60,050 nt of DNA. Source: an uncultured beta proteobacterium (GTDB lineage Bacteria > Pseudomonadota > Gammaproteobacteria > Burkholderiales > Burkholderiaceae). The stretch spans positions 1 to 60,050 of the forward strand of contig CAIUOP010000017.1 in assembly GCA_903900805.1 (NCBI GenBank). Reading direction: 5' to 3'. Positions 1 through 33,338 of the stretch are shown piece by piece (positions within the stretch are counted from its first letter, which is position 1; every line of letters begins with the position of its first letter). Below the pieces are notes generated by a model, which was not told the origin of the DNA, did no database searches, and worked only from the letters and a program-made list of their open reading frames with translations. The position numbers and the translations under genes were made by a program.

Positions 1-501
1 AATAAAACCAGCGATTTATCAGATTCACAACCTACCAAAGGCAATATTGCTGGTGGTCTCACTACGATCGAAGAAAAAGCGCTTGGTAATATTCAGAAAA
101 TCGGCAAGAAATGTGTTGTGGATGGCGTATTAGATAAGGCCGAGACCCCTACTATTCCAGGTTTGCATTTTATGGACTCCTCTTCAGCTGCCGCTGAAAT
201 GGTGACTCTTTGTGCTGCTGCTGGTTTTGCGGCCCATTTCTTTCCAACTGGACAAGGTAACGTGATTGGTAACCCAATTCTTCCGGTGATTAAGTTATGT
301 GCTAATCCAAAAACAGTGCGGACGATGTCTGAACATATCGATGTAGATGTTTCTGGTATTTTGCGTCGCGAAGAGACTTTAGATTCTGCTGGTGAGAAGC
401 TTCTCGATGCTCTTTTGAGAACTGCAAATGGCGAATTAACAGCAGCTGAGATTTTGGGTCACCGTGAGTTTGTGATGACCCGTCTATACGAGTCTGCTTA
501 A
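1..501 (+). CDS. UxaA-family dehydratase/lyase, C-terminal part (5' end outside window)
   Basis: The reading frame is open from the first base to the TAA at 499-501, so this is the last 166 codons of a longer gene. The residues [16 protein letters not shown] and, further on, [20 protein letters not shown] match the C-terminal domain of the altronate/galactarate dehydratase (UxaA/GarD) family, whose full proteins run to about 390-500 residues. The same fold also includes SuyB, the large subunit of (R)-sulfolactate sulfo-lyase. Given the sulfonate genes further on, SuyB is a possible alternative, but the visible part cannot decide. A GntR regulator starts 10 bases after the stop, so the two are probably co-transcribed. 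The family call is firm; the substrate is unknown. Confidence 0.8.
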
Positions 502-2973: not shown

Positions 2974-3951
2974 CTAGTTTTGATTGATTACTAGCTCAGT
3001 TGCAAAGCAGCGTTGATAGTATTCAGCAACCAAAGATTTTTCTTCTGATTCACACTTATTTAAAAATGCTAAGGTAAAGCCAAGTTGCAAGTCCTTGAAG
3101 ATCCGCCAGTTTTCACCCCAAGTAATGAGGGTTCTGGTTGACATCAGGGTAGAGATGTCGCCAGCCTCAAACCCTTTTCGAGTGAGATTAGCGAGTGCGA
3201 TCATTTGCTTAGCAGTCTCAGGTGAAAGCTCCGGAACCTTTGCTAGTAATATTTTTTCTTCTTCTAATGGCTCAAGATAATTGAGGGCGGCAACAATATC
3301 CCAGCGGTCCATCTGGCCATGATTTAGTAATTGAGTTCCCTGGTACATCCCATTCCAATTTCCTAAGCCAACTGTATTACTGGTCGCAAAAATCCGAAAT
3401 GCTGGATTTGGTTCGATCACTCTATTCTGGTCGAGTAGGGTGAGACGACCTTCGCGCTCAAGCATGCGTTGAATCACAAACATGACATCGGCTTGGCCGG
3501 CGTCATACTCATCTAGTATTAGTGCGATGGAGCGTTGCAAGCTCCACGGAATGAGTCCTTCTTGAAACTGGGTGACTTGTTTGCCATCCTCAAGGGTGAT
3601 GATGTCTTTTCCAATAAGATCCATACGGGTAATTTGCCCGTCTAGATTGATGCGTAAGCAGGGCCAATTTAAGCGGGCGGCAACCTGTTCTAAGTGGGTT
3701 GATTTTCCAGTGCCATGCATGCCTTGCAACATGACTCTACGGTTATAAGCAAAACCAGCGAGGATCGCCACACTGGCTTGTGGATTGAGTTGATAACTTG
3801 GGTCAACTGGGGGTACTAGGTCAGATTTTTGACTAAATGCTGGAATTTGAAAATCGGCAAAGCCCCGGCACTCTGGAAAGACAGAATGCAGTGAAACCAT
3901 CTGATCTGGTTGAAAACTCAATAAGTCGATGGATGAGGGGCTGGCAGCCAT
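2974..3951 (-). CDS. CobS-like AAA+ ATPase (cobaltochelatase CobS family)
   Basis: This 325-residue protein is a MoxR/CobS-type AAA+ ATPase. Walker A is GMHGTGKST (residues 77-85) and Walker B ends in DEYD (147-150). Long stretches such as EQVAARLNWPCLRINLD, ATSNTVGLG and QMDRWDIV are close to CobS of aerobic B12 synthesis, and the length fits. CobS hydrolyses ATP to drive cobalt insertion with CobT and CobN. The CobT-like partner follows directly. The promoter side faces xsc, so the 142-base gap to xsc must hold both promoters. No B12 synthesis genes are in the window, although a B12-dependent glutamate mutase lies about 5-8 kb away. The family call is strong; participation in a real cobaltochelatase is not shown. 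Confidence 0.88.
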   Translation of the reverse strand: MAASPSSIDLLSFQPDQMVSLHSVFPECRGFADFQIPAFSQKSDLVPPVDPSYQLNPQASVAILAGFAYNRRVMLQGMHGTGKSTHLEQVAARLNWPCLRINLDGQITRMDLIGKDIITLEDGKQVTQFQEGLIPWSLQRSIALILDEYDAGQADVMFVIQRMLEREGRLTLLDQNRVIEPNPAFRIFATSNTVGLGNWNGMYQGTQLLNHGQMDRWDIVAALNYLEPLEEEKILLAKVPELSPETAKQMIALANLTRKGFEAGDISTLMSTRTLITWGENWRIFKDLQLGFTLAFLNKCESEEKSLVAEYYQRCFATELVINQN

Positions 3952-4093: not shown

Positions 4094-5902
4094 ATGTCTA
4101 AGACTGGCGCTAATTTACCTGCTGGCCCACAAAAAATGACCCCCTCAGAGGCTTTTGTCGAAACAATGGCCGCGAACAAGGTGACAGATATTTTTGGCAT
4201 CATGGGCTCTGCCTTTATGGATGCAATGGATATTTTTGCTCCTGCTGGCATTCGTTTAATACCAGTAGTACATGAGCAGGGTGCTGCACATATGGCAGAC
4301 GGCTACTCACGAGTAAGCGGTCGGCATGGTGTGGTGATTGGTCAAAATGGACCCGGCATTAGTAACTGCGTTACAGGTATTGCAGCTGCCTATTGGGCAC
4401 ATAGCCCAGTAGTGATTGTGACACCTGAAACTGGAACTATGGGCATGGGTTTGGGCGGCTTTCAGGAAGCCAATCAATTACCGATGTTTGAAGAGTTCAC
4501 TAAATATCAAGGCCATGTTAATAATCCAAAACGGATGGCTGAATATACTGGCCGCTGCTTTGATCGTGCGATGTCAGAAATGGGTCCAACCCAATTAAAT
4601 ATTCCTCGCGATTATTTCTATGGTGAGATTGAAGTAGAGATTCCACAACCTCATCGCCTGGATCGCGGCCCTGGTGGCGAGAAGAGCTTAGACGAAGCTG
4701 CAGAGTTATTGGCGAATGCGAAATTTCCAGTCATCATCTCTGGTGGTGGCGTAGTGATGGCTGATGGCGTAGAAGAATGCAAGGCATTTGCTGAGCGCTT
4801 AGGTGCCCCGGTAGTTAATAGCTATCTACATAATGACTCCTTCCCAGCAAGTCATCCTCTATGGTGTGGTCCTTTAGGCTATCAAGGCTCAAAGGCAGCT
4901 ATGAAACTGATTTCTCAAGCTGACGTAGTGGTTGCATTAGGCTCCCGCCTCGGGCCATTTGGTACCTTGCCACAGCATGGTATGGATTATTGGCCTAAGA
5001 ATGCCAAGATTATTCAGATTGATGCTGACAATAAAATGTTGGGCTTGGTTAAGAAAATTTCTGTAGGTATTTGTGGTGATGCAAAAGAAGCAGCAATTGC
5101 ATTGACTAAGCGTTTAGCTAGCAAAACTTTAGTTTGTGATGCAACAAAGGCTGAGCGTGCAAAGACGATTGCTGCCGAAAAAGCTGCATGGGAAAAAGAG
5201 TTAGATGAATGGACTCATGAACGTGACCCATTCAGCCTTGACATGATTGAAGAGCAGAAAAAAGAAAAGACCCCAACCGGTGGCCACTACTTGCATCCCC
5301 GTCAGGTCCTTCGCGAGCTAGAAAAAGCGATGCCAGCTGATGTAATGGTCTCTACAGATATCGGAAATATTAATTCTGTTGCAAATAGCTATCTCCGCTT
5401 TGAAAAGCCACGGAGTTTCTTTGCCCCAATGAGTTTTGGTAATTGCGGTTATGCATTGCCAACCATCATTGGTGCGAAAGCGGCCGCTCCTAATCGACCT
5501 GCAATTGCTTATGCTGGTGATGGTGCATGGGCGATGAGTATGGTGGAGATTCTGACTGCAGTCCGCCATGACATTCCAGTGACAGCTGTGGTGTTTCACA
5601 ATCGTCAATGGGGCGCAGAGAAAAAGAACCAAGTTGACTTCTATAATCGTCGCTTCGTTGCTGGTGAATTAGATAGCCCAAGTTTTGCAACGATTGGGAA
5701 ATCTATGGGTGCAGAGGGAATTGTGGTTGATCAACTTGATCAAGTTGGCCCAGCTCTTAAGAAGGCAGTCGAAATGCAAATGAAAGAGGGTAAAACCTGT
5801 GTTGTTGAGATTATGTGTACTCGTGAACTGGGTGACCCTTTCCGTCGCGATGCACTTTCTAAGCCAGTACGCCTCTTAGATAAGTATAAGGATTACGTTT
5901 AA
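4094..5902 (+). CDS. xsc: Sulfoacetaldehyde acetyltransferase (thiamine-diphosphate enzyme)
   Basis: Xsc converts sulfoacetaldehyde and phosphate to acetyl phosphate and sulfite in the cytoplasm, the central desulfonation step for C2 sulfonates. The 602-residue protein has the ThDP-enzyme layout: N-terminal pyrimidine domain with catalytic Glu61 (HEQGAAHMADGYSR), a middle domain, and a C-terminal pyrophosphate domain with GDGAWAMS near residue 475 and NRQWG about 30 residues later. Segments such as AQNGPG-like GQNGPGISN, LGYQGSKAAMKLIS and KKISVGICGDAKE match Xsc rather than acetolactate synthase. The ATG at 4094 follows an AGGAGAG ribosome-binding site (4083-4089). The gene stands alone with its own promoter, operator and terminator, 16 kb away from pta and soeABC. 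Confidence 0.9.
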   Translation: MSKTGANLPAGPQKMTPSEAFVETMAANKVTDIFGIMGSAFMDAMDIFAPAGIRLIPVVHEQGAAHMADGYSRVSGRHGVVIGQNGPGISNCVTGIAAAYWAHSPVVIVTPETGTMGMGLGGFQEANQLPMFEEFTKYQGHVNNPKRMAEYTGRCFDRAMSEMGPTQLNIPRDYFYGEIEVEIPQPHRLDRGPGGEKSLDEAAELLANAKFPVIISGGGVVMADGVEECKAFAERLGAPVVNSYLHNDSFPASHPLWCGPLGYQGSKAAMKLISQADVVVALGSRLGPFGTLPQHGMDYWPKNAKIIQIDADNKMLGLVKKISVGICGDAKEAAIALTKRLASKTLVCDATKAERAKTIAAEKAAWEKELDEWTHERDPFSLDMIEEQKKEKTPTGGHYLHPRQVLRELEKAMPADVMVSTDIGNINSVANSYLRFEKPRSFFAPMSFGNCGYALPTIIGAKAAAPNRPAIAYAGDGAWAMSMVEILTAVRHDIPVTAVVFHNRQWGAEKKNQVDFYNRRFVAGELDSPSFATIGKSMGAEGIVVDQLDQVGPALKKAVEMQMKEGKTCVVEIMCTRELGDPFRRDALSKPVRLLDKYKDYV

Positions 5903-6007: not shown

Positions 6008-6991
6008 ATGAAAAGTTTTAAATTAATTTTAATAAAACATTTTTTAATCTGTTTTGGATTGATTTTACTTTCGACTAATGCACTCGCACAGAATTATCCC
6101 AATAAGCCAATTAAGTTAATTGTCCCTTTTCCACCTGGCGGTCCTACCGATATTGTTGCTAGACCATTAGCCTTATTACTGGGCGAAAGTTTGAAAGAGC
6201 AAGTCGTAATCGAGAATAAAGGCGGTGCTGGCGGCTCTATTGGCGCAGATCTCGTTGCTAAGTCAGCGCCAGATGGGTACACCTTATTTATGGGTACTGT
6301 AGGGACAAATGCGATTAATGGAAGTTTGTATAAGCAGCTTCCCTATGACATGACTAAGGACTTCACGCCGATAGCATTAGTAGCAACTGCACCGGTGGTC
6401 ATCGTTGTAAATTCAAGTGATCGCATCAAAACACTAGCTGAATTAATTGCAGAGGCCCGCTTAAAGCCAGATACGATTGCTTATGGCACTGCAGGAAACG
6501 GAACTCCAGGACATTTAACCGGAGCTCTATTTGAATCAACTGCTCAGATTAAATTGAAGCATATTCCTTATAAAGGAAGCGCTCCAGCTGTAACCGACTT
6601 GATCGGCAATCAAATCCCATTAATGTTTGATCCAATTCAGTCTGTATTGCCACATATTACTTCGGGAAAATTACGTGCACTAGCTGTAACTAGTAAAACC
6701 CGTTCTCCTTTATTACCGAATATCCCTACGGTAGCCGAACTAGGTTACCCACAATTTGAATCTACTGCTTGGTGGGCATTATTTGGACCCGCTAAATTAC
6801 CGGACAGCATTACTAAACAACTCAGGACCGATACAGAGAAGGTAGCCAAATCTGCAGCATTTAAAGAGCGGCTTGGAAATTTAGGTGTTCAGCCTAATAC
6901 TGACTTTAAAGAGAGCTTGGGAAATTTTCAGACAAGCGAAATAGCTAAATGGGCTAGGGTTGTACGAGATTCTGGCGCCACCGTTGATTAA
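6008..6991 (+). CDS. TTT-family (Bug/TctC) periplasmic substrate-binding protein 1
   Basis: The 327-residue protein begins with a signal peptide (about residues 1-27, ending ALAQ) and continues with the Bug-family start YPNKPIKLIVPFPPGGPTD. GGAGGSIGADLVAKSAPDGYT and HIPYKGSAPAVTDLIGNQI are family hallmarks. Such proteins bind carboxylates in the periplasm and normally feed a TctA/TctB membrane pair, none of which is in the window. The gene is first in a plus operon; the aconitase-X large subunit follows after 17 bases, so the ligand is probably the substrate, or a precursor, of that enzyme. The ligand cannot be read from the sequence. Confidence 0.9.
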   Translation: MKSFKLILIKHFLICFGLILLSTNALAQNYPNKPIKLIVPFPPGGPTDIVARPLALLLGESLKEQVVIENKGGAGGSIGADLVAKSAPDGYTLFMGTVGTNAINGSLYKQLPYDMTKDFTPIALVATAPVVIVVNSSDRIKTLAELIAEARLKPDTIAYGTAGNGTPGHLTGALFESTAQIKLKHIPYKGSAPAVTDLIGNQIPLMFDPIQSVLPHITSGKLRALAVTSKTRSPLLPNIPTVAELGYPQFESTAWWALFGPAKLPDSITKQLRTDTEKVAKSAAFKERLGNLGVQPNTDFKESLGNFQTSEIAKWARVVRDSGATVD

Positions 6992-7008
6992 TTAGTAGAG
7001 AAGAAAAA

Positions 7009-8241
7009 ATGAAGTTAAACGATGAAGAAAAGGCAATGCTGGCTGGTGAATTTGGCCCAGTCAGACAAATTGCCATCCAACACCAAATTAAAGTTGGTGA
7101 GTTTTTTGGTGCTCAAGACTTAGTCCCGGTATCGCAGGCGCATATCATGGCCGATACAGAAAGCTTAGGTGAGTCAGGCGTGGAATGGTTGGAGACCTTA
7201 GCTCTAAATACATTAGAGGATCGACAAGTTCGCATCCCCACTATTACTGATCCAAGAGGTACCGACTTTACAAAGGCCAAGCAACTTGGTCAAACTGAAA
7301 AAATGATTGAGTTAGAAAGACGTGCAATCAATGCATTTGTCAAAATGGGTGTCTCAATGACTGACACCTGTATTAATTATCAAACTATCATGGCCCCTGT
7401 TTTTGGTGAGCACTTAGCGTTTGGTGATACGGGCGTCGTGATCTATTCAAATAGCGTTTGTGGCGCTAGGTCTAATTTTGAGGGGGGTCCCTCAGCTCTA
7501 GCTGCAGGGCATACCGGAAGAACGCCGCGCTATGGATACCATCTAGATGAGCATCGTAGGCCAACCCATCGATTTAAAACACTCTGGACGCCTAAAACAT
7601 TAAATGAATGGGGTGCATTAGGTGGTGTGATTGGAAAGAAATCGGGTAACTACTGGTCTGTACCGGTACTTGAAGGTATCGAAGGCCATCCTGGCTCCGA
7701 TGCAATGAAACATTTTGGTGCTGCAATGGCCAGTTTTGGATCTACCGCTTTATTTCATGTCTTGGGTGTTACGCCCGAAGCTTTGCATACCCGAGATTTA
7801 GAGTATCTCCATCTGCCAGAGGTGGTGATTACTAAAGAAGAAGTCATGAGCCTGCAAAACTCTTATCGCATTGCAGAGGAGGTTGATGTAGTAGTTTTTT
7901 CAGCGCCTCAGTTAAGTTTGATGGAAATGAAAAGCATCGCAGAGCTATGTCATGGTAAGAAATTCATCAAGCCATTATTGGCGATGACAAGTCCACAAGT
8001 AAAGCCTGATGCAGACCGAATGGGTTATACAGCAATGATTGAGAATGCTGGGGGAACGGTATTTTCAGGGATGTGTTTTTATCAATCCTATGCAAGAGAA
8101 ATTGCTGAAGCAAATGGATGGAAGGTTTTGGCAACTAATAGCGCAAAGATAGTCAATATCTTGGGCGGTTACGGTTATACGCCGATGCTAGCCTCTATGG
8201 AAGATTGCGTTAATGCAGCAGTATCTGGGAGGTTGAAATGA
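7009..8241 (+). CDS. Aconitase X, catalytic (large) subunit
   Basis: This 410-residue protein belongs to the AcnX family (formerly DUF521). It shows the conserved block YSNSVCGARSNFEGGPSALA followed by TGRTPRYGYHLDEHRR, and three cysteines at the usual ligand places: C121 (DTCINYQT), C151 (NSVCGARSN) and C356 (FSGMCFYQ). Characterised AcnX enzymes are dehydratases, namely cis-3-hydroxy-L-proline dehydratase in bacteria and mevalonate-5-phosphate dehydratase in archaea. No proline or mevalonate genes are nearby; a B12-dependent glutamate mutase is encoded by the converging operon. The small subunit overlaps the end by 4 bases (ATGA). Substrate unknown, probably a hydroxylated or unsaturated di-acid. 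Confidence 0.85.
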   Translation: MKLNDEEKAMLAGEFGPVRQIAIQHQIKVGEFFGAQDLVPVSQAHIMADTESLGESGVEWLETLALNTLEDRQVRIPTITDPRGTDFTKAKQLGQTEKMIELERRAINAFVKMGVSMTDTCINYQTIMAPVFGEHLAFGDTGVVIYSNSVCGARSNFEGGPSALAAGHTGRTPRYGYHLDEHRRPTHRFKTLWTPKTLNEWGALGGVIGKKSGNYWSVPVLEGIEGHPGSDAMKHFGAAMASFGSTALFHVLGVTPEALHTRDLEYLHLPEVVITKEEVMSLQNSYRIAEEVDVVVFSAPQLSLMEMKSIAELCHGKKFIKPLLAMTSPQVKPDADRMGYTAMIENAGGTVFSGMCFYQSYAREIAEANGWKVLATNSAKIVNILGGYGYTPMLASMEDCVNAAVSGRLK

Positions 8242-8645
8242 GCGGAAAAATATATCAAGCTAAACATGCACAGGGTAATAGCATCGAAGGCGAATGTTTA
8301 AGTGCCTCAGACGGGTTTTCTGCCAGATATGATTTAGACCGTCTTAAGGGTGTCTTTTCTAGACCAGCCCACAAGCTTTTTGGTCAATCTTATAAAGATA
8401 AAATTCTAGTTTTAGACGCTGCTAAGGGCGGCGTTGCGAGCGCATGGATGTTGTATGAGATGAAGACCAGAAATATTTGTCCATTGGCGATTATTTTTAA
8501 TGCCGTCAACCCTATTTTGGCCCAAGGTGCTGCACATGCAGATATTCCAATGCTGAGTGGTTTTGACTGTGATATTACGCAGGCGATTAAAAGCGGCTCA
8601 CGCTTGCGCATTGATACTAATAAACAAACAGTTGAAGTTCTTTAA
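8238..8645 (+). CDS. Aconitase X swivel-domain (small) subunit
   Basis: The 135-residue protein matches the AcnX swivel domain (DUF126): HKLFGQSYKDKILVLD and then NPILAQGAAHADIPML. In characterised AcnX proteins the loop after the first strand is rich in serine and supplies the catalytic serine; here the loop reads AAKGGVASAW (residues 61-70), with a single serine at 68. The subunit is therefore a variant that may act on a different substrate or by changed chemistry. It is translationally coupled to the large subunit by a 4-base overlap. Its TAA (8643-8645) directly abuts the stop codon of glmE on the opposite strand, with no terminator in between. Confidence 0.82.
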   Translation: MSGKIYQAKHAQGNSIEGECLSASDGFSARYDLDRLKGVFSRPAHKLFGQSYKDKILVLDAAKGGVASAWMLYEMKTRNICPLAIIFNAVNPILAQGAAHADIPMLSGFDCDITQAIKSGSRLRIDTNKQTVEVL

Positions 8646-10115
8646 CTACCATTTATCACTCAATAAAGTTTGCATAGATTCAGACATTTCGTAAACACTG
8701 GATACTGCTAAATTAAGATCATAGGGTTGGTTTTCTTTTTCAGCCCGTAGCCTAAGCTTTTCCTCGTGAAATTCCAATACTTCTTTGGGGAATGGCATAT
8801 TGCCTGGATCTAATATTCGAAGGCAGCCATCCACATCTCTGGCTGGCATGACTTTGCTCTTAACCCATTTATTTGGAGACCAAGGGATATCTAAAATCCC
8901 TGCCTCAAAAGCTCTCACAGACCCAAGGGCGACATCACCATCACCCATTTCCAATACCTTATTTACGATTGGGCGCACCTCACTCTTAATCAAATTCACT
9001 TCATTTTGAAATTCAGGCATGGAGTCTAATTTAATATTTCTAGCGAGATAGATAGCCATTCTTGTCATTCTTAAGCCATCAGCGTTAATTTTCGGGGTTG
9101 GTATACCAAAAGCCTCATGCAGTGTTTTAGTGGTTACTGAACTTGCCCCAGAAATAGCTGCGAGTGTGCCGCCATAACTCACTAAAGATGCTGCTTGAGC
9201 TTCGTCTTGTGGCCAAGCCCCCATCCAATGCAATAGTGTGATTGGAGTAAATACGTCGGGGTAGCCTTTGATGCTGAGATATTCTTGGCATAGCTCTTTA
9301 CAGGCTTTTACTGCTGCTGCATCTTGTATGAGATGTAGTGTTTCACCCATCTCTAGCCCATAATTCTTGACGCCTTGAGCTGCAGCAAGTAGTAAATCTA
9401 GTATTGCAATAATGATTGCAATTGAAGGCGGTATATTAGTACCAGTCAAAAAGCCTGGTTGGCGACGATGTAGCTCAACACCATGATCTAGGTACATTGC
9501 AGAAAGTCTATCTAAGTACTGATAGTTCTTAATGCCATCCTCGATAGACAACTCTTTAATATAGGACGTGGTGTAGGCGATACCAGACCCTAGATAGCCC
9601 GTATAACCAGCCGCAAAACCAATCTCGCCAGTTAACTTAGGCATAGTTGTGCCAGTTAACATAATTGCAGGCTTGTCGATTGCATCAATGAGTTCACTCG
9701 CTTTTGCAACCCCATAATTCACTATTGGATAACCGTTTAATAGTGAGCGTCCTAATTTTTCAGATTCATCAATACCCTTTTGAGCTAGCGCAAATTGTTC
9801 ATTGCGAGTGTAGCTATCGGTTGTGGTTGGAACGATATCTGCTAATCCTTCTTTATCGATGATTTGCATCAACTCTTTTTGATCTTTAAAGGTGCCAAAT
9901 CCACCGCGAGGCTGGACTAGGCATCTGCCTTGCGTAACTGCTTTTCTCATGACCAGATCAAGTCTTTTGTGGTCAGGCAGTGATTTTTGTCTTTCTAGAG
10001 CACGCTCAAAATCGACATCCGCACCTGTTGGCCATCTCAACAGATTGGCTTTGCGCATTTCAAGAAATTCAGATTCATCAATTCTTTTTTCGGATATGGA
10101 GGATTCATTGCTCAT
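8646..10115 (-). CDS. glmE: Glutamate mutase (methylaspartate mutase) epsilon subunit
   Basis: GlmE is the large, substrate-binding TIM-barrel subunit of adenosylcobalamin-dependent glutamate mutase, which interconverts L-glutamate and (2S,3S)-3-methylaspartate. The 489-residue length is close to the family norm of about 483. Typical segments are VQPRGGFGTFKDQ, TDSYTRNEQFA, GYPIVNYG, and LHWMGAWPQDEAQA. All three parts (glmS, glmL, glmE) follow in order on the minus strand with gaps of 21 and 11 bases, so this is a full mutase operon. No classical methylaspartate ammonia-lyase is seen, but an enolase-superfamily gene heads the operon. Glutamate itself is the probable substrate because GlmS and GlmE both look canonical; a related substrate cannot be excluded. 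Confidence 0.92.
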   Translation of the reverse strand: MSNESSISEKRIDESEFLEMRKANLLRWPTGADVDFERALERQKSLPDHKRLDLVMRKAVTQGRCLVQPRGGFGTFKDQKELMQIIDKEGLADIVPTTTDSYTRNEQFALAQKGIDESEKLGRSLLNGYPIVNYGVAKASELIDAIDKPAIMLTGTTMPKLTGEIGFAAGYTGYLGSGIAYTTSYIKELSIEDGIKNYQYLDRLSAMYLDHGVELHRRQPGFLTGTNIPPSIAIIIAILDLLLAAAQGVKNYGLEMGETLHLIQDAAAVKACKELCQEYLSIKGYPDVFTPITLLHWMGAWPQDEAQAASLVSYGGTLAAISGASSVTTKTLHEAFGIPTPKINADGLRMTRMAIYLARNIKLDSMPEFQNEVNLIKSEVRPIVNKVLEMGDGDVALGSVRAFEAGILDIPWSPNKWVKSKVMPARDVDGCLRILDPGNMPFPKEVLEFHEEKLRLRAEKENQPYDLNLAVSSVYEMSESMQTLLSDKW

Positions 10116-10126
10116 AATATTTTTCT

Positions 10127-11512
10127 TTATTTACTGTTAGTGAGACGCTCTATTGCTAAGTTGAATGCAGCCTTTGGGTCAACTTGACTTAAAAGACCAC
10201 ATGCGTAGAGGATGTAGTCCCTATCAATCAAAATTTGAGGTGATGTTGGTCTAAGGGAGTTAGGCTCATCTGAGGATGAGAGAGTGCATTGGAGCAGGGC
10301 CATAGGATCTTTGCTATGAGCGATAACTCCACCAGTCCCAATGAGAGTTTTAATTTGAGTAAGGTCTTTACCATCTTGTGCTGTCACTGGTCCAGTAGCG
10401 GTATAAACAACCTCAATAGAGCCACAATGTCTTTTCATAGCAATTTTCAATGCAGTACTAGCAAGCGCACTATCTAAAGCAATCTCCTCTGGGCTTTGAG
10501 GAACGGAATCAGGATTTTTTGATAGGTAGGTGATCATTTCGATAATCTTTTCACCATGAATCTTGCTTAAGCTAACTAACTCATCAACACCGACAGTCTC
10601 TAGAATGGTAACTGCGTTATGGCGCATTCCTAAGTCACCTTCCACAGTTCTTTTAACGCGGGTCTCAGGCAGCCCTCGCTGAATAACACCTTGTACCGAT
10701 GGGTTCCCAGTGGCAATGGAGTGCACGTCTGTTGTAGCGCCACCAGGATCAATTACTAACAATTCTCCAAGCCCAGTACTGTCGTTGTAACCATCTGCTA
10801 TGAGACGTGCACCCTCCATTACGGCTGATGGGGTTGGCATAAGCAAATGATCAAATTGACCTTTTGCTTTATCGATACCTTTTGCATGAATGATGCGATT
10901 GATAAAAATATCCCGAATGGCCGCTCGTGCGGGCTCGATATTTAGTACATTAAATTCCGGCATCACATTTTCTGTAATGACCAGATTTTTATGTGCAAAT
11001 GCATGACTTACCTCATCCACTGCAGACCGATTGCCAGCATAAATAAATGGGCAATCTAAGGAGCTCTCACCGAGTTTTTTTGCATTATGGATAACAACCT
11101 GAGAATCCCCTCCATCTGTTCCACCAGCAAGTAGGATGATGTCTGGATTTAAGTCAATGATCTGTTTTAGATCTGCAGAGTTCAGCCTGTTTGCAAAAAT
11201 ACCTATCAATTTTGCACCAGCACCAAGTGCTGCACGCTTGGCAGCCTCGACGGTGAGCTCTTTCACCAATCCAATCGTAATCATTTTGAGACCACCAGCA
11301 GCGCTGCTCGAGGCGAGGCGATACTTAAATGGAGGAAGGTTACCAAGACTATTTTTTAAGCTATTGAGGGCCTGCTCCATACCAACATTAATATCTGACG
11401 TAACAGTAGAGGGCCCTTGACTGGATCCAAGGATTTTTGCCTCATCTAAATTAATGGCTCTTAATTTGGTGTAAGTGCTACCAAAATCTATCAAGAGGGC
11501 GAATTCACTCAT
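10127..11512 (-). CDS. glmL: Glutamate mutase accessory/reactivating ATPase GlmL (MutL)
   Basis: This 461-residue protein belongs to the ASKHA-fold GlmL/MutL family found between the two subunits of B12-dependent mutases. It begins with the phosphate-1 loop LLIDFGSTYTKLRA, contains a DLNPDIILLAGGTDGGD motif and a second phosphate loop VIDPGGATTDVHS, followed by GLPETRVKRTVEGDLGMRHNA. The role known for related proteins is ATP-driven exchange of inactivated cobalamin, keeping the mutase active. It lies between glmS (21-base gap) and glmE (11-base gap). The family is clear. Confidence 0.9.
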   Translation of the reverse strand: MSEFALLIDFGSTYTKLRAINLDEAKILGSSQGPSTVTSDINVGMEQALNSLKNSLGNLPPFKYRLASSSAAGGLKMITIGLVKELTVEAAKRAALGAGAKLIGIFANRLNSADLKQIIDLNPDIILLAGGTDGGDSQVVIHNAKKLGESSLDCPFIYAGNRSAVDEVSHAFAHKNLVITENVMPEFNVLNIEPARAAIRDIFINRIIHAKGIDKAKGQFDHLLMPTPSAVMEGARLIADGYNDSTGLGELLVIDPGGATTDVHSIATGNPSVQGVIQRGLPETRVKRTVEGDLGMRHNAVTILETVGVDELVSLSKIHGEKIIEMITYLSKNPDSVPQSPEEIALDSALASTALKIAMKRHCGSIEVVYTATGPVTAQDGKDLTQIKTLIGTGGVIAHSKDPMALLQCTLSSSDEPNSLRPTSPQILIDRDYILYACGLLSQVDPKAAFNLAIERLTNSK

Positions 11513-11533
11513 GGGATCAGCATCATTTTTTAG

Positions 11534-11947
11534 TTATTGTTTTCCTAGGTCCTGCTCTAGCCAAGAAAGAATATCTTCTAATCTAGTTCCTGGCGGAGCG
11601 GCCCTATCAAAACCCATATCTAAGAAAATAGCGTTGACTTCATCCCAAGAGCGCTTTCCAACCACAAGGTTACCTCCCACATAAAGCAAAATACCATCAA
11701 GGCCAGCTTCAGTACATAAGCTACGAAAGCCGCGACAGTCTAGTTCTCCCTGACCATATAAAGACGACACCAGAATCGCATCGGCTTTAGTTTCAATGGC
11801 GGCTTTTACAAAATCTTCAGCAGGCGTTAATGCACCTAGTGAGATGACTTTATAGCCAGCCTTCTCTAAAGCCATAGAGATGATTCGATTTCCAACAATA
11901 TGGGTATCTGAGCCTATGACTCCAGTAACAATGGTTTTCTGCGACAT
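11534..11947 (-). CDS. glmS: Glutamate mutase sigma subunit, cobalamin-binding
   Basis: The 137-residue protein is the B12-binding half of glutamate mutase. It carries the base-off/His-on signature D14-T-H16-I-V-G19, the lower ligand being His16, and the loops ILVSSLYGQGELDCRG and ILLYVGGNLVVGK that hold the nucleotide tail. Residue for residue it is very close to the clostridial GlmS I know, in both length and motif positions, which favours true glutamate mutase over a related mutase. The symbol glmS here means the mutase subunit, not glucosamine-6-phosphate synthase. It sits 2 bases after the preceding binding-protein gene. No cobalamin riboswitch is visible upstream of the operon. Confidence 0.93.
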   Translation of the reverse strand: MSQKTIVTGVIGSDTHIVGNRIISMALEKAGYKVISLGALTPAEDFVKAAIETKADAILVSSLYGQGELDCRGFRSLCTEAGLDGILLYVGGNLVVGKRSWDEVNAIFLDMGFDRAAPPGTRLEDILSWLEQDLGKQ

Positions 11948-11949
11948 TC

Positions 11950-12918
11950 CTATTTTCCTGATTTAGTCGTTAGTTTTTTGAAGATCGCTAGCTCATTCTC
12001 AAGAAAGGTATTTGCTTCAGCCATTGGGATATAACTATCTGGCAGGGCATATTGCTCTTTCAAGTAATTAGTAAACTCAGGGGTCGTAGATAGTTTATTT
12101 AGTGAATTTGCAAGCACTAGTAACTTTTTAGGATCCACACCCTTTTTTGCAACAATTGAACGTGTTTGAGGCAATAAAATATCGTATCCGTAATCACTCG
12201 ATACTGGGATGTCAGCAAATGGAGGGGGAAGTCTCTTTGATGCGAAAAAAATTAGGGGACGCAGTTTTTTAGCCTCTAGATGACTTCTGATATCACCGGC
12301 TTGTTCATACAAAAGCTCTACTTGATTACCTAGAACTGCCACATAACGTTCTGCTGGTTTTGGATAAGGGATGCCAACCAAATTAACGCCCTTTGTACCT
12401 AAATAAATTACAGTAGATTCGTCAGGGCTATTAGGGCCTGTAATAGCAACATTGATTGAGTTTGGCTTTAGTTTTGCTGCAGCAATTAAATCATCCCAGG
12501 ATTTGATTGGGCTATCGTAGTTTATGAAGAGACCTGAAGGCTGGCGAATCAGCACTGCCAAAGGTGTTATATCACTGTAGGCGAATGTAGATTTTGGAAA
12601 AGCATCTAAAGAAAGAGTATCGCCAGTCATAACCCCTATTGAGTAGCCTTTCGCTCCATTTTGGATCATTTTATTTAGTCCAATACTGCCGGTCGCCCCT
12701 GGAACATTTTGAACAACAATGTTAGTTTTTAAATCACTTTCAAGCCATCTTGCAGCCATCCTTCCCATGATGTCTGCGCCACCTCCAGGCCCCCAAGGAA
12801 CAATTAACTCGATTGGACTTGCCGGATATACTTCTTGGGCGTAAACAGGGTTTATATGCAATAGTGAAATGATGGGCAATACAAGGGCATAAATGCTTTT
12901 TCTGAAATTTTTCATCAT
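11950..12918 (-). CDS. TTT-family (Bug) periplasmic substrate-binding protein 2
   Basis: The 322-residue protein has a signal peptide (about residues 1-28, ending VYAQ) and a Bug-family N-terminal lobe (SPIELIVPWGPGGGADIMGR, VVQNVPGATGSIGLNKMI). It is clearly a different branch from the proteins at 6008 and 23592: the usual HIPYKG segment reads GIPYPKPAERYVAVLGNQ. Lying inside the glutamate-mutase operon, between the MDR oxidoreductase and glmS, it probably binds a substrate of that pathway. No TctA/TctB membrane genes are in the window, so it must share membrane components coded elsewhere or act as a sensor partner. Two adjacent Met codons (12918 and 12915) make the exact start uncertain by one codon. 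Confidence 0.88.
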   Translation of the reverse strand: MMKNFRKSIYALVLPIISLLHINPVYAQEVYPASPIELIVPWGPGGGADIMGRMAARWLESDLKTNIVVQNVPGATGSIGLNKMIQNGAKGYSIGVMTGDTLSLDAFPKSTFAYSDITPLAVLIRQPSGLFINYDSPIKSWDDLIAAAKLKPNSINVAITGPNSPDESTVIYLGTKGVNLVGIPYPKPAERYVAVLGNQVELLYEQAGDIRSHLEAKKLRPLIFFASKRLPPPFADIPVSSDYGYDILLPQTRSIVAKKGVDPKKLLVLANSLNKLSTTPEFTNYLKEQYALPDSYIPMAEANTFLENELAIFKKLTTKSGK

Positions 12919-12933
12919 GTGACTCCTTCGGTT

Positions 12934-13923
12934 TTAAGCTACGTTCAAAAGAAATTTACCTAAAGTTGCTCGAGATTCAAGCAATTCATGGACTTTTTGG
13001 ATTTCGGATAATGGATACACATCATGTATCGAGACGTGTAACTTTCCGTTTGAAATCAAAGAAAAAATTTCACTCATTCTTTGATTGATAACTTCAGCAT
13101 TTGGAATGTAGTCTGCTAGATGTGGGCGAGTGAAATAAATAGAGCCAGCTTCCGCCAGAGCTAGGGGTGCAATACCCGCTACTTGGCCAGAGCTTGCCCC
13201 AAACATGACGCATAAACCCCTTTTTTGCAGACATCGAATGCTTCTATCAATGGTGTCTTTTCCAACAGAATCAAACACGACGTTGACGCCCTGATTTTCA
13301 GTAATTCTCATTACCTCTTTCTGAAAATCTAACTCGCGATACAGAATAATATGATCTGCCCCTAATTTCTTTGCAATTTCAGCCTTCTCTTCGCTGCCAA
13401 CAGTCGTGATCACAGTGGCGCCTTTAAGTTTAGCCAGTTGTATTGCAAGCTGACCCACTCCACCAGCGCCCGCATGAATCAAGCAGGAGTCATTATTTTT
13501 TAGAGCATATGCTGAATTAGTCAGGTAATGCGCCGTGAGGCCTTGAAGCATTAATGCTGCAGCACGACTGCTATCAACTGTTTCCGGAATTTTGACGAGT
13601 CTCCATGCGGGAACTGCAGCATATTCTGCATAACTTCCCCTGGAGAGGCAATATGCAACTCGCTCACCCAATTTGAATTCCTTAACATTTTTACCAAGCG
13701 CATGAACTGTCCCAGCACCCTCCATGCCAACAGTCATCGGTAAGGGTGTTTGATAAGTGTGGGATTTTGCATATGAACCATTGCGCATATACACGTCCAT
13801 ATAGTTAATACCGGAGTACTCTAATTTGACGACCACCTCATTTTCCGCTGGAGTTGGTATAGGAATATCTTTTTCTAGTAATTTGTCTGGTCCACCGAAT
13901 TCATCAATTTGGATTGCGCGCAT
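12934..13923 (-). CDS. MDR-family zinc-independent NADPH:quinone oxidoreductase / enoyl reductase
   Basis: This 329-residue medium-chain dehydrogenase/reductase has an N-terminal GroES-like domain (NYMDVYMRNGSY) and a Rossmann domain with HAGAGGVGQLAIQLAKLKGA around residues 150-170. It lacks the catalytic zinc cysteine/histidine set, as in the quinone oxidoreductase (QOR) subgroup, which reduces quinones or activated C=C bonds with NADPH. Within the glutamate-mutase operon it is preceded by the enolase-superfamily gene (11-base gap) and followed by a TTT binding protein (15-base gap). Reduction of an unsaturated intermediate is a reasonable guess but not demonstrable. Confidence 0.88.
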   Translation of the reverse strand: MRAIQIDEFGGPDKLLEKDIPIPTPAENEVVVKLEYSGINYMDVYMRNGSYAKSHTYQTPLPMTVGMEGAGTVHALGKNVKEFKLGERVAYCLSRGSYAEYAAVPAWRLVKIPETVDSSRAAALMLQGLTAHYLTNSAYALKNNDSCLIHAGAGGVGQLAIQLAKLKGATVITTVGSEEKAEIAKKLGADHIILYRELDFQKEVMRITENQGVNVVFDSVGKDTIDRSIRCLQKRGLCVMFGASSGQVAGIAPLALAEAGSIYFTRPHLADYIPNAEVINQRMSEIFSLISNGKLHVSIHDVYPLSEIQKVHELLESRATLGKFLLNVA

Positions 13924-13934
13924 TTTTTCCTCGA

Positions 13935-15008
13935 TCAGTAATATTGCTTAGATGAAATCTGGAATTGATTGATTAAATTTAAGTCAATATTGGGTAGGTA
14001 GGAGGGTTCAAGTGAGATGCAGCCATCTTTGAATTGAAGGGGATTTTGTAGGACAGAGGAGACCGGCTTCATAAAGCCATTCATTTCACCAGCATTAGTA
14101 ATATGTGTTCTCGCAGCTAGTGCCTCCATCCAACAGCCGATTTCACCTGCAACGCCATTACCAAGAACAGGCTTCATCCCAAGATTAGATATGAGGGACA
14201 GAGCATTGGTTAAGTTTTTATAGGAGCCAAATTTCATAAGCTTGACCTTAATATAGGTGGCGATATTCAAATCAGCCGCTCTCTGGATATCTTCAAGTCC
14301 ATAAATTGACTCATCAAGCATCATTGGGACATTCGCGATTTTTGAAATTGCCAGAGCCGAATCCCAATCATCAGCATGACAAGGTTGTTCAAATAGCTCG
14401 ATTCCTGCTGGATTTAGTTGCTCAATAAATCTGATGGCCTCAGATCTCGAGTAGCCTTGGTTGCCATCGAGCCGAATTTTTGCCCGCTCCCTCAAGACTT
14501 TTTGAATGTTCTTCACCTTCACACTATCTTTATCTACATCAAATCCAACCTTAACCTTGAGGGTCTTAAATCCATTGGATAACAGAGCCTCAATTTCAAG
14601 CTCAAGATCTTCAAGAGTTTCAGCATTCACTACCCCGAGTATGGGGATGGATGCATGCGATTGATTTAGCAACGCACCTTGATGCTTGGCCAGCTCAATC
14701 GCTGAAGCAAGGGCTGTAACTGTAAAAGGATCGCTTACTAAATATTGATCAAGAAGTCGTTGATTTGACTCATCGGATTGCGCTACTAAATTTTTTGCAA
14801 GTTCTTGAATTAAATCCCAGCTACCTGCAATAGTTTCCTGTGTATAGCCAGTGAGAATGGTTGCTTCACCGAAGCCTTGATTTCCATTGGCATCTGTAAC
14901 ATTGACGATCAATGTATCAAAATGCGTAACAGGCCCAAAAGCAAGTTTATAAGGCACCTTCAAGGGCAGCTCAAGCCGATGGAGAGCAATGGATTCGAGT
15001 GATTTCAT
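13935..15008 (-). CDS. Enolase-superfamily enzyme, muconate-cycloisomerase subgroup
   Basis: The 357-residue protein has the two-domain enolase-superfamily layout with residues of the MLE (muconate cycloisomerase/dipeptide epimerase) subgroup: K151-V-K153 on strand 2, metal ligands D181 (RLDGNQGY), E207 (ELFEQP) and D232 (MLDES), and the opposite lysine K256 in KVKLMKFG. The late segment GVAGEIGCWMEA differs from the dipeptide-epimerase signature, so the substrate is open. It is first in the minus operon that encodes glutamate mutase. Methylaspartate ammonia-lyase is also of this superfamily but of another subgroup, longer and without the KxK motif, so this protein is not its orthologue; it might fill a comparable step or act as a racemase or cycloisomerase. 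Confidence 0.85.
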   Translation of the reverse strand: MKSLESIALHRLELPLKVPYKLAFGPVTHFDTLIVNVTDANGNQGFGEATILTGYTQETIAGSWDLIQELAKNLVAQSDESNQRLLDQYLVSDPFTVTALASAIELAKHQGALLNQSHASIPILGVVNAETLEDLELEIEALLSNGFKTLKVKVGFDVDKDSVKVKNIQKVLRERAKIRLDGNQGYSRSEAIRFIEQLNPAGIELFEQPCHADDWDSALAISKIANVPMMLDESIYGLEDIQRAADLNIATYIKVKLMKFGSYKNLTNALSLISNLGMKPVLGNGVAGEIGCWMEALAARTHITNAGEMNGFMKPVSSVLQNPLQFKDGCISLEPSYLPNIDLNLINQFQISSKQYY

Positions 15009-15201
15009 TTCAATTTATGTTAGCTACTTTGCTATAGATTGACAATTAGCTGTTTCCCGCTCATTTACAACTTTAAAATGCTAAGCATTTGTTTTTATTG
15101 AATTATTTTCTGATCACCTGTTTATATTAAGGTTACAATCATTCAATAAGTCATATATATGAATATCTACTTTCAGATTCTTTTTGAGTTGGTGCTAGGT
15201 A
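15009..15201. promoter_or_regulatory. Divergent promoter region with 12-base palindrome
   Basis: This AT-rich gap separates the minus mutase operon from the plus GntR gene and must hold both promoters. It contains the perfect palindrome TCATATATATGA (15151-15162), a plausible site for a GntR dimer. No riboswitch-like fold or cobalamin-box sequence was recognised. Confidence 0.4.
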
Positions 15202-15927
15202 ATGGTTAAAACATCCGAGTTTGCATATAAGCGGGTTAAGTACGCCATCACAGAATTGCTACGTCAAAATAAGTGGCGCCACAATCAAGCTATTCCAAGT
15301 GAGCCGATCTTAGCGGCTCGCTATCAGGTCAGCATTGGAACAATTCGGCGGGCTATCAATGAATTGGTTGCAGAAAATATCCTTGTGAGAGAGCAGGGTA
15401 GAGGGACATTTGTTGTTAGTCATACGCCTGATTACATGCTCAACGTATTTTTTAGGATTGAGAGTTCTGAGGGGGTGCGTGAATTGCCTCATTCGAAACT
15501 GATTTCCTTTGAAAAAATACGGGCTACTCAATTTATTGCAAAGAAACTATCAATTAAGCCCTATGAAAAAATCTATAAAGTGAAAACTTTGCTTAGTTTT
15601 AAGCATCAGCCTGCAATAGTCGATGAAATCTACTTGTCTGAAAAAATGTTCCCAAATTTAAGTGAAGATTTTTTTTCGGATAGGAATGAAACGCTTTATG
15701 GCTTATTTCAGAGGGTATATGGCATCACAGTTTTAAATATTAGCGAAACAATTGAGGCAATTCCTGGTAATAAATACATATCAAAACTACTTAAGCTAAA
15801 AATTAATCTACCTATTCTATGTGTAAAAAGAGTTGCTTACGCCTATAAAGGAAAGCCGGTGGATATGCGCATTCGCTATATTCATTCTAGTAAATACCGT
15901 TACTTTAATAATTTAGGTGGAGGGTAG
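15202..15927 (+). CDS. GntR-family transcriptional regulator with UTRA domain (HutC subfamily)
   Basis: The 241-residue protein has an N-terminal winged helix-turn-helix (about residues 5-75; LAARYQVSIGTIRRAINEL, then REQGRGTFVV) and a UTRA effector domain (about 85-235). It is divergent from the enolase/glutamate-mutase operon across 193 bases, the common layout of a local repressor with its target operon, so control of that operon is likely. The effector would then be a pathway intermediate. The coding region looks more AT-rich than the flanking housekeeping genes. It resembles the regulator at 512 in architecture only. A GST gene follows after 10 bases. Confidence 0.9.
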   Translation: MVKTSEFAYKRVKYAITELLRQNKWRHNQAIPSEPILAARYQVSIGTIRRAINELVAENILVREQGRGTFVVSHTPDYMLNVFFRIESSEGVRELPHSKLISFEKIRATQFIAKKLSIKPYEKIYKVKTLLSFKHQPAIVDEIYLSEKMFPNLSEDFFSDRNETLYGLFQRVYGITVLNISETIEAIPGNKYISKLLKLKINLPILCVKRVAYAYKGKPVDMRIRYIHSSKYRYFNNLGGG

Positions 15928-16558: not shown

Positions 16559-16578
16559 GCATGAGTTTGCAGAGTTTT

Positions 16579-17148: not shown

Positions 17149-17162
17149 GGAATGAGCGATCT

Positions 17163-18098
17163 TTATGACACTCTCTGATAGTACAAATTTTGAGGGTGAT
17201 TTGCTTCAGCAAAAAACATCCATCTTTCAGCCAATAGACCAATGTAATGCATTAATAAGGCAATCGCTATTTGGGCAATGTTTGGTGAATTCATAGAAAA
17301 AGCGAGCAAAATCATTGGACCAACATAGGCCATCAATAAAATAATCTTTCGAATATTGCTAATGACCCGATCGGTTTGATGATGGAAAAACTCTCGAGTA
17401 TTAAAGCTGCCGCCCATAAAGCCCATCGAAGTTTGGCGAATATTGCTACCTTTAATGCCTGTAGCAGAAGCCAAATTAGATTTAGGCTTTAACTTTTGAT
17501 TGCGCCGCCAGATCCATAGCTTGAGATTGAGAGCAAGAAATAACAAGATAAAGTTAGCGCCCGAGATCATGCTCATGGCTAAAGGAGCACTCGGCTCATT
17601 CCAAAGCATCAGAAGAAATTCTAGTAGCAAGCCGCCTGAGGTTAATCCTAGCAGGATGAAGTTGCTGAGAGTAGAGGGATGCGACCACTCTTGAATAAAG
17701 CGAATGCATTGGTAAATCTTGGCAGTACAGATCCATAGGGCTAGGATGCTGATCAGTAATGCTATCCAGAGCCATAATGGCACTAACCCAGAAACGACAA
17801 AGAGAAATGTCATTGCTGTCAGTAGCATCACTGCCGGCAGGGCAATCACTTCTCTAGAAAGCCAAGAGGTGCGCCACATCATCGCGGCACGCCAAGCTCG
17901 TTCAGGATGTCCTAAATGAAAAAATGAGGCTACTAAGCTTAATATAAGCAGTATGAAACTTACAGGCAAGGCTAGCATTGCTAGAAATGGCGCAGACAAG
18001 ATGGGCGCCTCTATATTCAAAAGAGCAATGAAAAATAATAAGCCTTGTGCCATCCCTGCAAGGGTCGTAAAAAAGATAATGGAAAATTGGGGGCGCAT
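17163..18098 (-). CDS. soeC: Sulfite dehydrogenase (quinone) membrane anchor SoeC, DmsC-like
   Basis: The 311-residue protein is an integral membrane subunit with about eight hydrophobic helices (for example FFTTLAGMAQGLLFFIALL near the N-terminus), of the DmsC family. HLGHPERAWRA is a conserved stretch of this family. It anchors the molybdoenzyme to the inner membrane and passes electrons to quinone. Its ATG overlaps the soeB stop (TAATG), as expected for a tightly coupled complex. The assignment to sulfite oxidation rests on the neighbours pta, IclR, sauS/sauT and the likely presence of sulfite from Xsc; dimethyl-sulfoxide or polysulfide reductase are family alternatives. Confidence 0.85.
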   Translation of the reverse strand: MRPQFSIIFFTTLAGMAQGLLFFIALLNIEAPILSAPFLAMLALPVSFILLILSLVASFFHLGHPERAWRAAMMWRTSWLSREVIALPAVMLLTAMTFLFVVSGLVPLWLWIALLISILALWICTAKIYQCIRFIQEWSHPSTLSNFILLGLTSGGLLLEFLLMLWNEPSAPLAMSMISGANFILLFLALNLKLWIWRRNQKLKPKSNLASATGIKGSNIRQTSMGFMGGSFNTREFFHHQTDRVISNIRKIILLMAYVGPMILLAFSMNSPNIAQIAIALLMHYIGLLAERWMFFAEANHPQNLYYQRVS

Positions 18099-18754
18099 TA
18101 TTTGTCATTCCTTGCTGCGTCAATCGTTTCCATAATCGAGCGAGGTAAGTAGTGGTTAGCGGGTTGGGTTTCCCATTCAGGCATGAGGGCGTAACCTCCA
18201 CGCTCTGCAATCGCTTTGCTTGCTTCTGACTCTGGATCATGAACATCGCCAAAAATACGGGCGCTGGTTGGGCATGCGAGTACACATGCAGGCTTACGCT
18301 CTGACTCAGGTAAGGTTTCGCTGTAAACACGATCTACGCACAAAGTACATTTCGTCATGACTTGGCGTTCTTCATCTAGTTCACGTGCTCCGTAAGGGCA
18401 TGCCCAAGAGCAATAGCTACAGCCAATACATTTATCGTAATCAACCAATACGATGCCATCTTCTTTGCGCTTATAACTTGCTCCTGTTGGGCAAACAGGG
18501 ACGCAGGGAGGCTCTTCGCAATGCAGACAGGATTTTGGAAAGTGGACTGTTTGGGTATTGGGAAATGATCCTGCTTCATAGGTTTGCACTCTATTAAAGA
18601 AGGTCCCACTTGGATTGGCACCATAAGCATTCAGGTCTGTTAGCGGTCCTGCAGAGCCAGAAGTATTCCACTCTTTGCATGATGTGACGCAGGCATGGCA
18701 GCCTACACAAACATTGAGATCAATGACTAAGGCGAGTTGTTTATTAGCGCTCAC
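18098..18754 (-). CDS. soeB: Sulfite dehydrogenase iron-sulfur subunit SoeB
   Basis: This 218-residue ferredoxin-type protein shows the cysteine motifs for four [4Fe-4S] clusters: CVGCHACVTSCKEW, CLHCEEPPCVPVCPTGA, CIGCSYCSWACPYG, and CTLCVDR with CVLACPTSA. It carries electrons from the molybdenum subunit to the membrane anchor. Length and cluster arrangement match SoeB and DmsB/PsrB proteins. Its start overlaps the soeA stop by 4 bases and its stop overlaps soeC, showing tight co-translation. There is no signal peptide, which fits the cytoplasm-facing SoeABC enzyme. Confidence 0.88.
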   Translation of the reverse strand: MSANKQLALVIDLNVCVGCHACVTSCKEWNTSGSAGPLTDLNAYGANPSGTFFNRVQTYEAGSFPNTQTVHFPKSCLHCEEPPCVPVCPTGASYKRKEDGIVLVDYDKCIGCSYCSWACPYGARELDEERQVMTKCTLCVDRVYSETLPESERKPACVLACPTSARIFGDVHDPESEASKAIAERGGYALMPEWETQPANHYLPRSIMETIDAARNDK

Positions 18755-24569: not shown

Positions 24570-24611
24570 ATGAACTTCTAATCAATTAAAGATGTTAACC
24601 AAGTATAAGAT

Positions 24612-26018: not shown

Positions 26019-26026
26019 GTTTCACA

Positions 26027-30434: not shown

Positions 30435-30439
30435 GCTAT

Positions 30440-31270: not shown

Positions 31271-31340
31271 ATTTACTCTGTTAAGTTTAAGTGCTGATTT
31301 GTGATGGCTTGCTTTGCATGTATGGTGCCGGCCCAATTTG

Positions 31341-33319: not shown

Positions 33320-33338
33320 GGATAAATTCCATTTAAAA

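Follow-up and report, generated by a model that had tools for sequence, protein, structure and literature searches.

In a 60,050-nucleotide stretch of DNA from an uncultured beta proteobacterium (GenBank contig CAIUOP010000017.1, positions 1 to 60,050; hereafter the window), we describe a B12-dependent mutase operon that is best read, on sequence grounds, as encoding an adenosylcobalamin (AdoCbl) mutase of the glutamate mutase family that now isomerises a small sulfonated carboxylic acid. Its substrate is very probably not glutamate, as substrate-binding residues of the catalytic subunit GlmE are replaced throughout its subfamily, and the enzyme quite probably works in a sulfonate context. The reaction that we favour, 2-sulfopropionate to 3-sulfopropionate, comes near to an even chance in our estimate; somewhat more tentatively, we propose a B12 enzyme that would shift the sulfonate between adjacent carbons by way of a sulfite radical plus acrylate and would work together with a 2-sulfopropionate racemase of the enolase superfamily. 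The window is contig C17 of a 1.9 Mb genome, whose nearest named relatives, judged by GlmE, are Polynucleobacter meluiroseus metagenome-assembled genomes (MAGs; 97%).

The variant mutase and its enolase-superfamily partner

The operon occupies positions 15008 to 8646 of the minus strand in the order MLE-type enolase, MDR-family oxidoreductase, TctC, GlmS, GlmL and GlmE, with gaps of 2-21 bases (Table 1). The glutamate mutase gene set is complete, comprising GlmE, GlmL and a GlmS with the DxHxxG B12 ligand motif, all scoring above curated cut-offs; a first-pass annotation of this DNA had reported the set, including the motif D14-x-H16-x2-G19, and every gene lies where it was placed. We compared the operon with 41 other mutase loci, many of them on short contigs, for which the locus counts given here come from anchored gene calling and tblastn (longest-open-reading-frame calling gave shadow genes in high-GC loci and was not used for them). 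The ligand motif is unchanged in 35 of 35 GlmS proteins (window and 34 loci).

The window GlmE is 39% identical to that of Clostridium cochlearium and 32-39% identical to the canonical-type proteins compared, and it scores above the glutamate mutase cut-offs; mutual identity within its own subfamily is at least 63%. An alignment of 38 subfamily proteins (the window and 37 of the 41 loci; L042, L045, L050 and L051, cut or miscalled, were left out) contains 68 positions that are invariant in the subfamily yet different in C. cochlearium. R149 and E171 of the C. cochlearium chain are both leucine in 38 of 38, H150 is replaced by threonine or serine and G173 by serine, and R66, R100, Y177, Y181, K326 and E330 are kept in every member. 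The leucine pair is also present in L042, L045 and L051 (the L050 protein ends before the site) and in six loci from genomes sampled across the order (L003-L008). Among five distant GlmE homologues, R149 is kept by all and E171 by four, with L009, L010, L141 and L142 having both. When the phylum was sampled more widely, the GlmE family appeared in 3 of 229 genomes including the window's own, the other two being canonical at 149 and 171. Genome G100 encodes a second GlmE homologue (L011, 1438-2844; R149, T171, F177) that is 36% identical to the window GlmE and represents a third GlmE type. The GlmL of G092 (L060, 10287-11638) matches in three pieces in different frames, its GlmE and GlmS each in one piece.

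In glutamate mutase, R66, R149 and E171 bind the glycyl part of the substrate and R100 and Y177 the acrylate part (as given in part of PMC10947579). Set beside these published roles, the retention of R100 and Y177 and the loss of R149 and E171 suggest that the acrylate half-site is intact and that the half holding the migrating glycyl group has been remade; with its glycyl- and amine-binding residues gone across the whole alignment, glutamate becomes improbable as the substrate. T/S150, S173 and R214 may stand in for the two lost residues.

The first gene of the operon encodes an enolase-superfamily protein with the motifs KVKVG, RLDGNQG, FEQP, LDES and KLMK, of which the KxK, D, N, E, D and KLMK residues are unchanged in 20 of 20 proteins (window and 19 loci). 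The KxK, D-x-N, E, D and second lysine are common to the MLE subgroup, as in L-Ala-D/L-Glu epimerase (AEE; 1jpm) and muconate cycloisomerase. Residue roles, assigned by alignment to 1jpm and from general knowledge of the subgroup, give lysines on both faces (KxK and KLMK) and three acidic metal ligands, the racemase/epimerase signature of the subgroup, and the protein is best read as a racemase. It falls under the cut-off of all 15 NCBIfam families that it matches and has an invariant motif of its own, GEMNG, which presumably stands where AEE carries a DxD dipeptide clamp. No methylaspartate ammonia-lyase family match was found in the operon, where the enolase matches MR_MLE families; the genome elsewhere was not searched for this enzyme. 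The coupling of a B12 mutase with a KxK enolase, already noted in the first-pass annotation, proved to be a conserved unit: the enolase gene is present in 19 of the 41 loci and a relative in 34 of the 41 genomes (32 of them at 46% identity or more).

Sulfonate genes and a succinate dehydrogenase-like enzyme

A second contig of the same genome, C12 (locus L057), ends in 141 bases identical to the start of the window, and its positions 12685-13509 join window 1-501 in one SuyB-like gene; these shared end bases and the single joint gene make it very likely that C12 precedes the window in the genome. C12 encodes SdhB, two Sdh_cyt proteins, the class I fumarase FumA and FumB, an SdhA-like protein, TauE (PF01925, 102 bits), TctC, a D-2-hydroxyacid dehydrogenase, an Ldh_2-type dehydrogenase and SuyAB-like proteins, so that succinate dehydrogenase (SDH)-like and fumarase-like genes are linked there to sulfolactate-type genes, the content of a module leading from 3-sulfopropionate to sulfolactate. 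The names SuyAB, SlcC and SlcD are our assumption from family and gene order, as is SuyB for the window fragment from its context. Independently of the C12 overlap, a single contig of P. meluiroseus G400 carries GlmE, xsc, SuyAB-like, SlcD-like and SdhA-like (16156-17862) genes. Class I fumarase genes are linked to the mutase in some loci and in the window's own genome, inside sulfonate-type clusters.

Across the 41 loci, GlmL is present in 36, GlmS in 34, the MDR oxidoreductase in 12, SauS (acylating sulfoacetaldehyde dehydrogenase) in 12 and xsc (sulfoacetaldehyde acetyltransferase) in 7; a TctC2-like gene occurs in 18, and TctA and TctB in 8. One or more of xsc, SauS, SuyB and TauE were found in 21 loci, or 25 once the SdhA-like gene is added (identity thresholds: xsc 55%, SauS 50%, SuyB 50%, SdhA 60%, TauE 40%; an SdhA match at 31% in L032 was not counted as SdhA-like). 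The SdhA-like gene directly follows GlmE in L014 and L048, and xsc directly precedes the MLE-type gene in L015, L058 and L060. Upstream of GlmS, eight loci (L020, L021, L029, L030, L034, L036, L040 and L049) have a gene on the opposite strand, the L036 copy of which is a trypsin-like peptidase.

Searches of whole genomes found the SdhA-like protein in 36 of the 41 mutase genomes (best matches 59-92% identical) and Xsc in 34 of the 41 and in the window's own genome (35/42), versus 0 of 14 control genomes. The SDH-like enzyme and Xsc, together with other sulfonate genes, are the conserved partners of the mutase. A sample of 399 genomes of the order includes nine with a GlmE match, seven of them the variant. 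The SdhA-like protein is present in 51 of the 399 (at least 66% identity, counted by hand, the fragment-only G212 and G382 being left out), including all seven mutase genomes (Fisher 4e-7), and the MLE-type protein, at 46% identity or more, in seven, including six of the seven mutase genomes (Fisher 9e-12), values that take no account of relatedness.

The SdhA-like protein has glutamate at the place of T244 in 39 of 39 aligned rows (from 37 loci, the C12 and L048 proteins being entered twice), and the other SDH of the window's genome has threonine; H232, E245, R287, H355 and R390 are kept, in what we take to be fumarate reductase numbering. The exchange of T244 with the other site residues retained suggests that the enzyme may act on an analogue of succinate and not on succinate itself. 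The two SDH-family matches in this genome are 71% (SdhA-like) and 33% (the other SDH) identical to the query. Thirty SdhA-like loci were viewed within 1.5 kb, four of them in mutase genomes; among the other 26, FumA or FumB is found in 20, and an SlcD-, 2-hydroxyacid-dehydrogenase- or Suy-like gene in 15, where the SlcD-like matches, at 42-50% identity, are not specific.

Proposed reaction and its rivals

In Roseovarius nubinhibens, 3-sulfopropionate is degraded via sulfoacrylate and sulfolactate, according to a thesis cited in PMC11489063, the Discussion of which mentions neither a B12 mutase nor a racemase in its account of the route. We infer like chemistry for the SDH-like, fumarase-like and sulfolactate-type genes described here, a set that could run a Roseovarius-type route. 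The sole 1,2-shift isomer of 3-sulfopropionate is 2-sulfopropionate.

In the mechanism that we propose, the deoxyadenosyl radical would take a methyl hydrogen of 2-sulfopropionate, the substrate radical would part into a sulfite radical anion at R66 and an acrylate at R100 and Y177, and re-addition of the sulfite radical at the other carbon would give 3-sulfopropionate. Racemisation of the branched acid at its α-carbon would fall to the MLE-type enolase, in the way that methylmalonyl-CoA epimerase serves methylmalonyl-CoA mutase, a role that fits a 2-sulfopropionate stereocentre adjoining the carboxylate and lysines conserved on both faces of the enolase site. The SDH-like enzyme would then convert 3-sulfopropionate to 3-sulfoacrylate, class I fumarase would add water to form 3-sulfolactate, and sulfolactate dehydrogenases with a SuyAB-type sulfo-lyase would lead from sulfolactate to pyruvate and sulfite, the latter exported by TauE; as an alternative end, Xsc would cleave sulfoacetaldehyde. 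From the observed gene content, linkage, residue changes and co-occurrence we infer the substrate, the direction and every reaction of this C3 scheme, in which mutase and racemase, the half-site that has changed, and the SDH-like and fumarase enzymes would all find a joint explanation.

Several points weigh against it. The MDR oxidoreductase has no role in the scheme, which also leaves unexplained why SauS directly follows GlmE in six loci (L029, L030, L034, L036, L040 and L049) and has no need of the SucCD-like CoA ligase that comes next in five of these. No 2-sulfopropionate was found in the literature searched, we know of no natural source of it, and its assignment as substrate is a reading of residues and gene neighbourhoods. 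The glutamate at position 244 of the SdhA-like protein adds a negative charge, at first sight poorly suited to a sulfonate. The SlcD-like and SuyB-like proteins fall under every equivalog cut-off (the Ldh_2-type dehydrogenase of C12 reaches 212 bits for L-sulfolactate dehydrogenase, NF040650, against a cut-off of 500), and no Pfam family matches the SuyA-like protein. Sixteen of the 41 loci have no marker in the sequence available, and the 26 that span 12 kb or more divide into 16 with a marker and 10 without; among the 41 mutase genomes, whose completeness is unstated, the thresholds applied leave 5 without an SdhA-like protein, 7 without a relative of the MLE-type protein and 7 without xsc. 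The SdhA-like protein is also present in 44 of 392 mutase-free genomes of the order, three from the same genus. Finally, both the co-occurrence counts and the Fisher values ignore relatedness, and the 41 genomes overlap the order sample, at least two being in both (G055 holds the L041 contig and G233 the L051 contig).

A sulfonate context would hold whatever the exact substrate, and the mutase could instead act on another sulfonate, for example in interconverting 2-sulfoglutarate and 3-methyl-2-sulfosuccinate, or on a hydroxy- or aldehyde-bearing C3-C4 sulfonate. The MDR oxidoreductase and SauS with a CoA ligase, for which the C3 scheme has no explanation, speak for such a substrate; if the migrating group bore a second carboxylate, however, R149 would be expected to be needed, to judge from the glutamate mutase structure cited above, and we consider this reading rather unlikely. 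In a C4 route, 2-methyl-3-sulfopropionate would become 4-sulfobutyrate via a sulfomethyl radical, and oxidation of the product would give sulfoacetyl-CoA, which SauS would reduce ahead of cleavage by Xsc. SauS in 12 of the 41 loci, half of them with SauS directly after GlmE, xsc in 35 of the 42 mutase genomes, and the SauS, CoA ligase, GMC dehydrogenase and BKACE enzyme of the window, which could yield sulfoacetyl-CoA, all agree with this. We nevertheless regard it as unlikely, because the 41 loci contain no BKACE, no β-oxidation set was recognised among the annotated neighbours (themselves a part of all neighbours), and the partner encoded in 36 of the 41 genomes is SDH-like, which in combination with fumarase would fit an analogue of succinate and not one of glutarate.

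The sulfonate genes might also be mere neighbours of a mutase whose substrate pair is free methylmalonate and succinate, or methylsuccinate and glutarate, with SDH and fumarase following on naturally; an amino-free substrate suits the absence of the amine-binding E171, and the small anion at R66 could be a carboxylate. What makes this quite unlikely is that the SdhA-like protein differs from the genome's other SDH and carries glutamate at position 244 in every row, that it keeps company with sulfolactate-type genes in 15 of the 26 loci from mutase-free genomes (allowing for the unspecific SlcD-like matches), and that Xsc accompanies the mutase in 35 of 42 genomes. There remains a true glutamate mutase opening the methylaspartate pathway, with the MLE-type protein as ammonia-lyase and AcnX (aconitase X) as hydratase, close to the methylaspartate-like route that the first-pass annotation had suggested. 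Its identity to C. cochlearium GlmE, its scores above the glutamate mutase cut-offs and the presence of AcnX in 25 of the 42 mutase genomes, the window's own included, speak for it. The leucine pair in all 38 proteins, set against the R149 and E171 that distant homologues mostly keep, the lack of a methylaspartate ammonia-lyase match in the operon and an AcnX that adjoins the mutase in 0 of the 41 loci render it very improbable, and that route is not borne out.

AcnX, the surrounding island and known systems

The operon does converge exactly on the AcnX genes, as first annotated: on the plus strand xsc is followed by TctC, AcnX large and AcnX small, the last ending one base before the GlmE stop (8645 versus 8646). 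This adjacency is found in the window only. Of the association that the first-pass annotation proposed to look for across genomes, the enolase was kept and AcnX as a neighbour was not, though AcnX is encoded in 24 of the 41 genomes, compared with 2 of 14 controls. In the order sample it is present in 43 of 399 genomes, including five of the seven mutase genomes (Fisher 2e-4, likewise blind to relatedness), and in 33 of the 51 with an SdhA-like protein. We rejected AcnX as hydratase of the mutase pathway in the sense of a locus partner; given the genome-level co-occurrence, a looser link may exist. In the relatives viewed, AcnX is encoded at a distance from the mutase and frequently together with TctC (75-83% identical in the related loci L126, L127 and L129). 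Among solved structures the window AcnX matches 7cnr best (198 bits), a DUF521 protein that we take to be TkAcnX, and its score for cis-3-hydroxyproline dehydratase (NF051439, 181 bits) does not reach the cut-off of 700. Separate large and small subunits are shared with aconitase X type II, of which bacterial types IIc to IIf are without assigned function in the part of PMC8184944 that treats them. In an alphaproteobacterial MAG (L137, 5014-7022), AcnX stands next to a TauE exporter gene; this neighbour and the co-occurrence with the SdhA-like protein hint at a sulfonate role for AcnX.

Other window genes are listed in Table 1. The regulator divergent from the operon is placed alike in the related loci L012, L043 and L046. 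The CobT-like and CobS-like genes, which possibly serve cobalt chelation for B12, lie near xsc and the mutase operon, likewise in the related L013 and L046; their L046 relatives reach 186 bits for TIGR01651 (cut-off 759) and 453 bits for TIGR01650 (cut-off 559), both under cut-off. The layout of the molybdopterin, FeS and anchor subunits resembles, we presume, that of SoeABC sulfite oxidase. The TctC-like, SauS and CoA ligase genes are probably a sulfoacetate module; Xsc and SauS, both above curated cut-offs, look like a shared end of the island belonging to the sulfoacetate pathway and not like a step of the mutase. Further genes encode a phosphotransacylase, a SulP permease, a GMC dehydrogenase, BKACE and a TRAP transporter, the last three at 28833-34498, possibly an isethionate or other sulfonate module; relatives of GMC, DctP and DctQ (55-65%) adjoin xsc-MLE-GlmSLE in L060. 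The SucCD-like ligase of other loci was considered as HpfYZ (3-sulfopropionyl-CoA synthetase), a reading that finds no support, the H160 signature of HpfZ (placed from the motif) being threonine in five SucD-like proteins.

Table 1. Genes and gene groups of the window, with positions, strand and basis of assignment
Feature	Position	Strand	Basis
SuyB-like C-terminal end, cut by contig start	1..501	+	galactarate/altronate dehydratase family; related L013 protein PF20629 285 bits, PF04295 116 bits
GntR/UTRA regulator beside SuyB-like gene	512..1231	+	gene order alike in L013, L046
CobT-like	1224..2954	-	PF11775 110 bits
CobS-like	2974..3951	-	AAA_5
xsc, sulfoacetaldehyde acetyltransferase	4094..5902	+	TIGR03457 1065 bits, cut-off 676
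TctC, AcnX large and AcnX small, separate unit between xsc and glmE (TctC starts at 6008)	6008..8645	+	PF04412 386 bits, PF01989 88 bits
AcnX large	7009..8241	+	
AcnX small	8238..8645	+	
GlmE-type catalytic subunit, L at 149 and 171, proposed sulfonate mutase	8646..10115	-	TIGR01503 465 bits, cut-off 390
GlmL-type accessory protein	10127..11512	-	NF040745 585 bits, cut-off 475
GlmS-type B12-binding subunit, D14-T-H16-I-V-G19	11534..11947	-	PRK02261 187 bits, cut-off 110
TctC periplasmic binding protein, tripartite carboxylate transporter	11950..12918	-	PF03401
MDR-family oxidoreductase, quinone-reductase-like	12934..13923	-	family match; 12/41 loci
MLE-type enolase-superfamily protein, operon gene 1, proposed racemase of branched substrate	13935..15008	-	PF13378 103 bits
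GntR/UTRA regulator, divergent from operon	15202..15927	+	PF07702, PF00392
DmsC-like anchor, FeS and molybdopterin subunits	17163..21636	-	no equivalog over cut-off; related L043, L046 copies 69-95% identical
TctC-like, SauS (acylating sulfoacetaldehyde dehydrogenase), AMP-forming CoA ligase	23592..27559	+	SauS NF047625 738 bits, cut-off 600; ligase PF00501 256 bits; TctC-like by sequence

The closest characterised relative, glutamate mutase (GlmES with GlmL; EC 5.4.99.1, C. cochlearium, PDB 1cb7/1ccw), has the three-gene set, the B12 motif, R100, Y177 and R66 in common with the window proteins and differs in the R149 and E171 that are leucine here. In the methylmalonyl-CoA mutase and epimerase system, a branched acid is racemised and converted by a B12 radical shift to a linear isomer that enters SDH and fumarase; the proposed pathway would work in the same way, with an epimerase of another family, no CoA ester and a sulfonate in place of a carboxylate. 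That the pathway is without description, as the first-pass annotation supposed, agrees with our finding no account of a glutamate-type mutase joined with sulfonates in the literature searched, most subscription papers lying outside that search. To our knowledge, this would be the first B12 mutase in organosulfonate metabolism.

If the assignment is correct, the whole GlmE subfamily would be misnamed, since curated models score the window protein above glutamate mutase cut-offs, and functions would be suggested for the MLE-type enolase and for the SDH-like enzyme of 51 of the 399 sampled genomes of the order. The chemistry would be a new radical reaction in which a sulfonate, or a group bearing one, undergoes a 1,2-shift, and it could be put to the test using three purified proteins with simple acids. 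B12 would acquire a function in sulfonate turnover within the sulfur cycle, in a pathway that would stand as a sulfur mirror of the methylmalonate-succinate-fumarate-malate route.

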